From the NCBI GenBank assembly GCA_963922205.1, contig CAWUHX010000007.1:620001-684000 (forward strand): DNA of 64,000 nt, given 5' to 3'. The stretch's first letter is position 1; the number at the start of each line of letters is the position of its first letter. The notes beneath the pieces were generated by a model, which made no database searches, had not been told where the DNA came from, and saw only the letters and a list, made by a program, of their open reading frames with translations. Below are positions 57,415-64,000 of the stretch, piece by piece. The position numbers were made by a program, and so were the translations under genes. This stretch comes from Romanomermis culicivorax (taxonomy: Eukaryota > Nematoda > Enoplea > Mermithida > Mermithidae).

Positions 57415-59653
57415 ATGAAGTCAGAAGTTGATCTACCTTCACCGATTGAAAATAAGGTCCAAGAATGAGAATGCCCTTGGACCGCTCAACCAAAAGTTGA
57501 AGGCTATGAATGGCACAACGCACCCACCATCCTGTGTCCATCTTCATGGCCCCTCCTGCCTTTTCAGGTGCTTTTGGTGAGTCCATAACGGATTTTATAT
57601 CTCACTTGACCTGTTTCTTTACACTTGAAGGGGTAGTAGAAACAGATCATGCATATAAAATCCTGTTCCTGTAGTCTTGCCTAACAAGTCCTGCTCGCGC
57701 ATCCTACTGGGACTTTAGCAGTGGAACTCCGCAGCCTATCTGCTACAAAGAGTTCACGGCTTTTCTTAGGAGAGACTTTCCAGTAGGGCGTGACTCAGAT
57801 CTGCATCAGCAGTTGATCCAGGATTGCCTGCAGAAGCCGACTGAGTCCCCGATAGTCTACCTTGAGAACCTTAAGAGACTGTCCAGGGTGGCTTATCTGG
57901 ATCTCGCGACTGACATTAGGGATTTGATTATAAAACCTATATTTCTGCGAGGGTTAAAACCAGTCCTTCGAAATAGTATTAAGTTCAGGGAGTTCACAAC
58001 TCATGAAGAGACTCTCAAAGCAGCTTGTTACGCAGAATCACAGATTTTTTGGGATGAGATTAGGTATACTGCCCCATCTAATGCTGTTTTCTCTTCAGAA
58101 CAAAGGACCGCCGATAACATCAGGTCAATGTCAAATCAAAGGGGCACTGCTCAACGTCCGTCAGCAAAGCCGTCCAACGAAATTCGACGTTTGCAATCAG
58201 AGATGGCCCGGCTCACAGCTCACGTTGCCCGACTTACAGCTCAGCAAACAGCGCCGCCTCCGAGAAGTTTGACGCCATCAATGATGCCGTCGATGCGAGT
58301 CCAAAACGCTGGCAATCACCCATCAGGGGTACATTTACAGATGTGCTCCTGCCATGGATGCTGCACCCACAACGACCCTAATTGCCAGGCCCAACATCCC
58401 GATAGCGCCGGCCCTAGCACCGTCACCACCACTGGCGCCAGCCCTTGCTATTTTTGTCAAATGAGGGTGCACCCGACTGACCGATGCCACAGACCCTGCC
58501 CGCATTGCCGAAAGATACATGTGCACAGGGCTACGGCCTGCCCTAATCGGACTCCGACATTGCCTGGTGAGACTAATTTTGGTAATTCTAGTTACTCTCC
58601 TCAGGGGGCAAGTGGAAATTTTCGGCGATATGCTGATCCAACTCCTCATGGGACAGGGAACCAATATCGGTCACCCCCACGGCAAAATAATGCTGTAGGG
58701 GCTACCAACGGTCTTCTTCACCCAGATCTGTTTGATCTGGATGATGAAGTTCTGGCTGAACATCTGGCGGATCACTCACAACTGTGTTATCCTGTCTGTG
58801 TACTCAGTATTGGGTTTTCAGCTACTGCAGTGGTTTCGGCACCGACTCTGTTGTTGGCTTTGCTGCTGCTGCTGCCGAAATACGCGATGCTGGTCAAAAT
58901 AAACCCATCAACGACACCGAAAATGACTGGCGACATCAGCGTAATCGGGTCATATCGACCCACGGAAGGTACAACAGTGCCACAGGCACGTGTTATCACC
59001 CAAGGACCGCCGCCCGGAATTCCCACGGACTCTGTGTTGGAGGTCGTCGGTCAAATGGAATCAATGAATCTGCTAGGTAAACTACCTTCTTTTTCTGCCA
59101 TTTCAGGTCTGGAAATCAGATATCCTTATAAGTCACTGGCTTTAATGATTTCTTGTTTACAGATTCCTCATCCGTCACCGACGCGATGCGGGCCATTTGG
59201 TCAACAGATTTGGCCAAAAAGTATCCACACCTCCCATGGGGGCTACTCAACGAGCCATTCGAGGTTGAGGCGCTTACGGCCGCCCACATGGTGCTATCCG
59301 CCCCAGCAGCGTTGCCGATTTTGGGACCCGACCTCCCTCGACGATCATCCGAGTTTATCGCCGATGGAACTATTCGCACCACCCCGGTGGACAAGATCCT
59401 GTTGGATGGTGAACCGTCGTCGCCGGCAGTAAACGCCATCCGCCGCACTGTGGAGGAAGCCAGTCGCAACGTGCGGCCCACAGCAGTTGTTGCCATGTCA
59501 CCGACAAGAATGACGATGGGAGTCCAAACAGTCCAAAAAAAGCGGCAATTGCTCAACAGCAACCGGTCACCAACGCCTTTGGAGAACCGTTGCGCCCCAT
59601 TAACAACGTCGTCAGCGTCACTGAGGGGTCACCATTTTTTCAACAAAGAATGA
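57415..59653 (+). pseudogene. gag with two zinc knuckles, broken
   Basis: Capsid-nucleocapsid polyprotein of the retroelement. A first coding-like piece starts at 57415. The main frame starts near 57546 (MAPPAFSGAFGESITDF), has a TAG at 57672, then runs open from 57675. Capsid motifs GRDSDLHQQL, KPIFLRGLKP and ACYAESQIF match the 2.1-3.0 kb relic. Nucleocapsid knuckles follow: CYFCQMRVHPTDRC (Cys-X2-Cys-X4-His-X4-Cys) and CPHCRKIHVHRATAC. Near 58780 the natural frame seems to change, since the alternative frame (58784-59080, then 59153-59653, with DAMRAIWSTDLAKKYPHLP) looks more protein-like than the rest of the nominal frame. That last piece is of unknown role. Confidence 0.78.
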
Positions 59654-59666
59654 AGCCGCCCGACGG

Positions 59667-62206: not shown

Positions 62207-62286
62207 AAACTCTCCGGTTACACTAGAGAAAGGCCATTTTTGCGAGCCTTAGTGATTCTGATGCACCTGCATCCCCTGTACTAGAG

Positions 62287-64000
62287 GTGCCCCCACTCTC
62301 TGACACAGAGGTCGAATCCCTAGGAGCTACTCAGAGCTTAGGGGAGCAATCGGATCATGTACTCACTGTTCAGGTCCATCCTACTCCTCGGACCAATCCC
62401 GAATCACCTGTTGGTTATGCTCTGGTAGGACTACTCCGACGCACTGGTTTGCCGATACCGAAGCGAACCAATGCACCAGAGTCGAGTTTTGATGATTCTG
62501 CACCTGACCCAGGTCATGTGGTGTCAGCTTTCTACCCCACTGAAATGAGGACCCCTCATATCTGAGTTCTACTGAACAATTGGGTGGAAGCCGAAGCTCT
62601 AATTGATACAGGAGCAGTTTTCATGCTCCTGGATCACAAGTTGGTGGTCCAGCTACCTGACTTGGTACTCACAGAGACTAGGGCTCGCCCCATAGCAGCC
62701 AATGGGTCTTGGATTCTACTGCTAGGTGCTGCCTATGTCACAGTGACAGTGGCTGATGTCTCTAAATTAATTCAGGTCCAAGTTCAGGAGAATTGTTCAG
62801 CTGAACTAGTCTTGGGGAGGAACTTCCTCGGATGGTTCAATTGTGTGAGCTTGAACTGGGAGAAATCCTTTCTTCAGTTCAAGGACCTTCGGGTTCCGTG
62901 TGAAGGCCTCATTCACAATCCTCCCTCTACTCGTGAGGCACTACCCTTGCATGAGTTGATTGTCCTTGAGCCTCGCTCGCTGACACAATTTACTACACCT
63001 GTACCTTCACTATATGCAACTGTGCCCGAGGTAGCTTTCTTTCCTAAGCCCCTTTTGGGACAGCAACGCAGTGTGTATTTTGCTGGTAGTGTGAGCACCG
63101 TGACTAACGGTCGCATACCCCTACAGGTAGTTCACCGGATTACACACCCAGTGGTTCTCTACCTGCACACAACCATGGGTCATGTGCAGATGCACACTGA
63201 TTCCTCACAGGGATTGGTGGTCAAGTCTGATACCATTCTTGATCTGAAGTGGGTCGAGGCAAATGCTGTGGTATCCCCCGATATCTCCTCACAGGATAAG
63301 ACAGCGTTATTCGATCTACTGGTCGCATTCACTGACCTCTATGCTATTGATGAGAAGGACACAGGTTCCACTGACCTCGTGCACCATGAGATCAGCACGG
63401 GTGACACTCTCCCAGTCCTCCATTTCCCTTACTGCACCGCGCTCAAGGAAAAGGATCTCATCATACAAGAAGTCAAGGTGCTCCAGGAAAAAGGTATTAT
63501 TCGGCCTAGCACTTCTCCCTGGGCTACTAACACCATTCTGGTTCACAAGAAAAATGGGTCACACCGGATGTGTGTTGATTTTCGTGGTCTTAACGAGGTC
63601 ACAAAAAAGGATGTCTATCCTCTCATACGGATTGATGATATCCTCAACACACTAAAGGGCATGAAATACTTTACTACCCTTGATCAGGCTAACACCTACT
63701 AGTCTATACCTATTGCCGAGGAAGACAAGGAGAAAACAGCGTTTAACACGCCTATTGGACTTTATGAGTTCAACTATCTGCCCTTTGGTCTTTGCAATGC
63801 CCCTGGGACCTTTGAACGCCTCATGGATCTGCTTCTCACGGGATTGCAGTGGTGCACAGCACTGACCTATCTCGATGACATCTTGGTGTTTGGGAACTTT
63901 CACACCCAGATGCTTGAGTGCCTGACAAATGTGTTTACACATCTCCGTCAGGGTGGAATAAAGCTCAGACTGAGTAAATGCAAGTTTTCGCACTCTGAGG
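62287..64000 (+). pseudogene. Ty3/gypsy-type protease and reverse transcriptase
   Basis: One frame with two stops. After a TGA at 62563, the protease reads EALIDTGAVFMLLD and ELVLGRNFLGWF, both catalytic landmarks intact. A spacer of about 160 residues follows. Reverse transcriptase begins with GIIRPSTSPWATNTILVHKK, VDFRGLNEVTKKDVYPL and TTLDQANTY. There a TAG (63700-63702) stands where gypsy elements have Trp (YWxIPI). The frame goes on with YLPFGLCNAPGTFERLMD and the polymerase box TYLDDILVF (63865-63891), and runs off the window. The stop is a single-base change, so this copy looks recently inactivated. Confidence 0.88.

Follow-up and report, generated by a model that had tools for sequence, protein, structure and literature searches.

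A glycoprotein region between gag and pol in Ty3/gypsy elements of the nematode Romanomermis culicivorax

Can a retroelement carry its envelope gene (env) ahead of pol, and if so, is such an order an accident of one locus or an inherited arrangement? This question is raised by a stretch of 64,000 nucleotides of the Romanomermis culicivorax genome (GenBank: GCA_963922205.1; contig CAWUHX010000007.1, positions 620,001 to 684,000, forward strand; hereafter the window), in which a gypsy-type element has an envelope-like region between gag and pol. Retroviruses and enveloped retrotransposons are described as having env after pol and as usually expressing it from its own mRNA. Our analysis revealed that the gag-env-pol order is inherited and present in several families of elements. 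The copy in the window is probably a decayed member of a multi-family Ty3/gypsy (Metaviridae) lineage, in which gag and pol, with a class III-type glycoprotein between them, share one reading frame; the glycoprotein would be produced as part of a Gag-Env-Pol polyprotein.

An earlier note, based on the letters of the window, had described gag, a signal-like segment, a glycoprotein with one anchor, a protease (PR) and a Ty3-type reverse transcriptase (RT) in this order on one strand. We confirmed these features on the + strand at the same place. This included the two CCHC-type knuckles of gag (CX2CX4HX4C and CX2CX5HX4C at ~58446-58541), the signal-like segment (~59700-59775), the single membrane span (~61340) with its basic tail, and the continuation of the env frame into a protease-like domain (PR1, 61469-61978, in frame with env). 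The element extends past the segment noted earlier, from a long terminal repeat (LTR) starting at 51719 to coding sequence at ~66203 and a second LTR at 66689-68114, the last two outside the window. Features were located in the window as follows, in most cases by comparison with a long-frame copy (C201) from the same genome.

51719..53152, + strand: 5' LTR, TGTCA...TGACA (direct repeat and reading of its ends)
53153..53174, + strand: putative primer-binding site TGGTGAGGCTGGAAGCTCGACC, adjoining the 5' LTR end and recurring after the 3' LTR
53175..57308, + strand: long leader, presumed untranslated, with imperfect repeats ~328 bp apart
57325..58988, + strand: gag, with Ty3-type capsid region and two CCHC-type knuckles (tblastn to the long-frame copy)
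59682..61468, + strand: env, with internal signal, ectodomain, single membrane span and basic tail (tblastn to the long-frame copy)
~59700-59775 and ~61340-61427, + strand: signal-like segment and membrane span of env (scanned in the long-frame copy)
61469..61978, + strand: first retropepsin-like domain (PR1), same frame as env (tblastn to the long-frame copy; weak Pfam match)
62518..62976, + strand: second retropepsin domain (PR2, DTG; tblastn to the long-frame copy)
62836..64000, + strand: start of the Ty3/gypsy RT, running past the window end (tblastn to the long-frame copy)
Window-equivalent 66689-68114, beyond the window, + strand: 3' LTR (direct repeat and reading of its ends)

The copy in the window is interrupted by stops and frame changes. 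Its Gag capsid match covers 57325-58634 (tblastn against the long-frame copy), and pieces of RT, RNase H and integrase reach ~66203, beyond the window. PR1 of the window copy has a VTG motif, where 11 of 11 other copies inspected have DTG.

Conservation of the gag-env-pol order

The genome (359 Mb in 595 contigs) was searched with the env-PR1 sequence. At least 90 places were detected, the window included, and 13 of the 90 listed env copies sit in a frame of 3018 residues with a match free of stops. In C201 the frame of this length encodes gag-env-protease-RT-RNaseH-integrase, annotated by Pfam in the order Ty3_capsid, Monjiviricetes_fusion, protease, RVT_1, RNase H, H2C2 and rve. Six of nine fetched copies, which had been picked partly for long frames, keep the frame intact between positions -3630 and +5424 relative to the env reference point.

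Searching with the RT instead gave 93 copies among the matches listed, 68 of them with env ~2.05 kb upstream; the env-RT spacing was 2055 nt in 61 of these, 2058 nt in five, 2052 nt in one and 2024 nt in one. Of the other 25 listed RT copies 20 were read, and env was present in 19 (one with an internal deletion) and absent in one. The earlier note had named copies lacking the 59.7-61.5 kb segment as evidence that would count against it; with env in 68 of 93 listed copies and 19 of 20 more, the claim held. Four gypsy families of the genome (C5, C38, C1, C126) showed no env in the 2.3 kb before RT.

Five other copies all begin their LTRs with TGTCA and end them with TGACA, and the first 120-133 bp of their paired LTRs are 98.4-100% alike. 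Target duplications of 4 bp flank the LTR ends in four of the five (none was seen in C201), which indicates that transposition carries the whole element, env included. The earlier note had also named boundaries with a target duplication as a sign that the env segment was inserted from another element; the duplications observed here are those at the LTR ends. In the window copy, the direct repeat between the region of 51719 and window-equivalent 66689-69046 (2368 columns, 97.8% identical) extends into leader sequence, since a second primer-binding site and leader adjoin the 3' LTR. This stretch (L001:3189-5546), which then ends in a truncation, represents a partial second element in tandem. The imperfect repeats of the leader in the window lie at 53514-54103. 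No tRNA matching the primer-binding site was found, the sole tRNA in the window being a Thr tRNA.

The Pfam env model matches 68 scored places in the genome. Four diverged families (C382, C147, C150 and C58) each have gag, signal, env, span, PR, RT, RNase H and integrase in this order, the signal of C58 being weak; their env and RT sequences are 36-46% and 42-55% identical to those of the window family. In a further family (C72) env precedes PR and RT, the upstream gag portion being outside the stretch read. Five public proteins (P0003 and P0005-P0008) contain gag, env, PR, RT, RNase H and integrase in a single chain, the gag of P0003 being identified through similarity to the family gags. P0004 from Caenorhabditis japonica has gag, env and PR, P0002 has env, PR, RT and RNase H, and P0009 starts at the env signal and continues into PR and RT. 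The order is thus common to copies, families and public proteins, and we conclude that it was inherited and did not arise by chance insertion.

Two further public proteins differ from this pattern. P0010 has a weak match to DUF5641, which we take to be a BEL marker, followed by env, and resembles a BEL element with env after pol. Residues 1-496 of P0011 contain a signal peptide and a span before PR-RT-integrase without a match to the env profile (PF24664), perhaps a different envelope type in the same slot.

The glycoprotein and the placement of the element

Profile comparison with envelope families, which the earlier note had proposed, assigned the env of C201 to Monjiviricetes_fusion (PF24664) with 60.5 bits (cut-off 27), whereas the env pieces of the window copy alone scored 14.5 and 20.3 bits, under the cut-off. 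The env model resembles herpesvirus gB, with Foldseek TM-scores to gB of 0.27-0.43. By profile and modelled fold, env belongs to the Monjiviricetes-type class III glycoproteins, and a role in fusion is predicted. Env searches against PHROGs and the sequences of solved structures gave no match, and among viral contigs 238 stretches fitted the search pattern, of which none encoded a relative of env.

Env is under constraint: the ratio of nonsynonymous to synonymous polymorphism (pN/pS) is 0.10 in its ectodomain (11 copies), and its cysteines are kept between families. In the same 11 copies pN/pS is 0.06 for PR1, 0.14 for the SR-rich linker and 0.15 for PR2-RT; immediately upstream of env it is 0.94. 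Nine copies gave 0.12 for the capsid, 0.24 after the knuckle region and 0.78-0.80 for the linker before env.

The element is a member of the Metaviridae (Ty3/gypsy) by its RT and RNase H, pol order, GPY/F integrase, capsid, LTR ends (TG..CA) and target duplication (4 bp, within the 4-6 bp of the family). The best match of its RT among solved structures is the Ty3 RT (E 8.2e-91), followed by a chain named Enzymatic polyprotein (2.3e-58) and a Peptidase A9/RT chain (2.7e-35). Its pol has the order PR-RT-RNase H-integrase, and the integrase carries DGPYF, a form of the GPY/F motif (for its meaning see PMC12440569). The Ty3_capsid profile (PF19259) matches C201 with 32.1 bits (cut-off 29.1); a comparison of gag with solved structures gave no credible match. 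The protease domains of C201 fall below the Pfam cut-off of 28.2 bits, PR1 clearly (16.2 bits) and PR2 just (27.9 bits), and the PR1 model (predicted local distance difference test, pLDDT, 39.3) is too poor for a reading of its fold. The retropepsin-like domains of the window family, two in tandem, are each under constraint and each have DTG in 11 of 11 other copies; in C382, C147, C150 and C58 a match was obtained for the second one only.

In an RT tree of 18 rows, which leaves out 11 genome RT places without env status as well as P0013-P0016, P0018 and P0019, the 12 env-bearing rows form one side of a branch whose support (49/88) is not strong; holding them together was not rejected (approximately unbiased test, p-AU 0.276). 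A first tree of 35 rows with far relatives had very long branches and an unsettled backbone and needed two changes of the env label; it was set aside. The env and RT trees recover the same pairs, C382 with C58, C150 with P0005, P0007 with P0008 and the window family with C147 (77/92 in the env tree). The RT is Ty3-type, as the earlier note had suggested; support for an env-bearing clade is not strong. The note's proposal of a distinct retroelement lineage is borne out by the shared env and RT groupings, the order in four other families, env-PR-RT in a fifth and the public proteins; a single origin is not proven (49/88; two changes).

Expression of the element and competing explanations

The best-supported route of expression, and a probable one, is as follows. 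A single Gag-Env-Pol polyprotein would be translated; Gag would remain in the cytosol, while the internal signal would direct Env into the endoplasmic reticulum, with signal peptidase cleaving before Env. The anchor would halt transfer and leave protease, RT, RNase H and integrase on the cytosolic side, and the element's protease would then release Gag and the enzymes. In this way Env and Pol would be anchored in a fixed ratio at the membrane from which budding takes place. Structural polyproteins of flaviviruses and alphaviruses follow a similar logic.

Eleven records have gag upstream in the same frame, C150 with an intervening stop. In nine of them the 30 residues preceding the signal core contain no methionine (Met), the exceptions being C150 and P0005; in the window family there is none in the preceding 200. 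For this count the signal of P0003 was placed by eye. At least three K/R residues follow the span in 10 of 12 records. Ten records have both a detected signal and sequence upstream of it; nine of them carry at least two K/R residues ahead of the signal, and in seven the net charge there is positive. The absent Met and the charge pattern are in keeping with a polyprotein whose Gag and Pol portions are cytosolic and whose Env portion is luminal. We consider it somewhat probable that a broad, old group of enveloped Metaviridae uses a Gag-Env-Pol polyprotein of this topology-driven kind, its signal internal and its anchor of the stop-transfer type. If so, this would be a third way for a retroelement to gain an envelope, beside splicing and env frames at the end of the genome, and one translation product would put capsid and enzymes on one membrane side and the fusion protein on the other.

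A number of observations weigh against this account. In three of ten records (C382, C147, P0006) the sequence ahead of the signal lacks a net positive charge. Family C150 has a TAA between gag and env, and Met residues stand 4 and 9 positions ahead of its signal. In P0005 a Met stands 11 residues ahead of the signal, and P0009 and P0011 open with a signal at a Met of their own, so that in some members Env-Pol may be a separate product. Frames are also interrupted by a TAA in gag of C147, an early gag frameshift in C58 and an integrase frameshift in C150. The linker contained no indels against 16 in the leader (9 copies), a contrast biased by the choice of long-frame copies. Acceptor-like TTTTCAG sites lie 109 nt (C382) and 70 nt (C147) before the signal, with a weaker site in C150 (-84), and the window family has a donor-like site close to its gag end (-2315). 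The env model is of moderate quality (pLDDT 62.8, weak from ~residue 395), and pN/pS reaches 0.72 in the short span and tail (11 copies) and 1.69 in the knuckle region (9 copies). Finally, the RT backbone is not settled in either tree, and the env of the BEL-like P0010 falls among the gag-env-pol envs (53/75), which makes some exchange with BEL-type elements possible.

The order might be real but the proteins separated by cis- or spliced-leader trans-splicing, giving an Env(-Pol) mRNA, and/or by in-frame removal of env, giving Gag-Pol. The splice-like sites in C382, C147, C150 and the window family and the Met at the signal in C150, P0009 and P0011 are in line with this, as is the errantivirus env, expressed from a spliced mRNA according to PMC12992720. 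In contrast, the window family has no over-threshold acceptor nearer than ~980 nt upstream of the signal, C58 has none within 800 nt, and no over-threshold donor lies near the gag end in C382, C147 and C58 (all by a weighted scan without a control). A nearby Met is absent in 9 of 11 records, and a single frame is kept in 10 of 10 lineages, which separate mRNAs would not require. We consider separation by splicing or env removal possible but rather unlikely. An Rfam search for nematode SL1 gave no match, nor did it in its controls.

It is less likely still that env was captured between gag and pol repeatedly, or swapped between elements, with the shared order reflecting convergence at a permissive site. 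The trees leave one origin unproven, P0011 has a signal and span before its protease without a PF24664 match, and the weakly placed P0010 env raises the odds slightly; the pairs shared by the env and RT trees, however, speak against this reading. That env is a non-functional passenger is very improbable. Only 13 of 90 listed copies have the full-length frame, but pN/pS of the ectodomain is near that of the capsid and below that of PR2-RT, and the cysteines are kept between families. The decayed window copy and the partial element adjoining it might point to an accident of one locus: an endogenous viral glycoprotein inserted once, a nested element or a misassembly. Such an explanation, nested or chance insertion included, is refuted by the uniform env-RT spacing in 68 of 93 listed copies, env in 19 of 20 more, the other families, the public proteins and the LTR-end duplications.

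Known elements and neighbouring features

Like errantiviruses and other insect endogenous retroviruses, the gag-env-pol elements combine a Ty3/gypsy pol with a captured viral envelope. The errantivirus env, however, is F-type (baculovirus-like) and in a third frame (PMC12992720, part seen), and it lies after pol, whereas the env described here matches PF24664 and lies upstream of PR in one frame with gag and pol. The position of env ahead of protease and pol also departs from the gag-pro-pol-env order of Retroviridae. Anakin, a Pao element of mosquitoes with a chuvirus glycoprotein, captured the same broad viral glycoprotein group but has a BEL/Pao pol, in contrast to the Ty3-type RT and GPY/F integrase found here. 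The earlier BEL elements Roo, Tas and Cer-7 have an envelope-like gene downstream of the polyprotein (PMC7642597, in the portion consulted).

Nematode genomes also contain Jingchuvirales-derived glycoproteins (Event-3) of a related class; these are reported to be flanked by simple-repeat and low-complexity sequence, and the word gag does not occur in the main text of PMC10084718 as far as it was accessible. Cer1 of Caenorhabditis elegans is a nematode Ty3/gypsy element with an extra protein region, but there the extra frame follows pol, is unlike envelope proteins and contributes part of a protein made by splicing (PMC10309623, PMC3315495, both in part). With herpesvirus gB and the Monjiviricetes glycoproteins the env shares a predicted fold and Pfam family, but here it is an internal domain of a retroelement frame. 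No gag-env-pol order was described in the excerpts of the literature searched (Repbase and subscription papers lay outside the scope), and in those of PMC8556966 and PMC6238403 the words 'between gag and pol' occurred only in a reference title.

The conserved gag-env-pol frame represents another route by which a retroelement may gain and keep an envelope, and it offers a model, open to testing, of how Env and Pol might be coupled to assembly. It also adds to the variety of class III-type glycoproteins that LTR elements have captured. Elements of this kind would be overlooked by annotation pipelines that seek env only after pol.

The window contains further mobile sequences. On the - strand, a further gypsy-type element occupies 28574-34500; it has frames for RT, RNase H, integrase and a gag-like protein, and tblastn detected no env in it. 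A gag remnant at 2260-2780 on the same strand is 46-57% identical to the capsid of the gag-env-pol element. Mutator-like transposase frames at 47351-49673, with what is presumably a SWIM-like cysteine pattern, have an inverted copy beyond the 3' LTR (L001:7574-8999; 93% over 1455 columns). The genome itself bears marks of a nematode host in 50 places matching Col_cuticle_N, a nematode collagen domain (the controls of this search being of little help), and in its mitochondrial code. A flatworm host was rejected, since under code 5 the cox1 frame has K at conserved sites, which would be N under code 9. Elsewhere in the genome, a cox1 frame that is open under the invertebrate mitochondrial code (G000:C117:992573-993922) lies on a contig of at least 993 kb and is possibly a nuclear copy.
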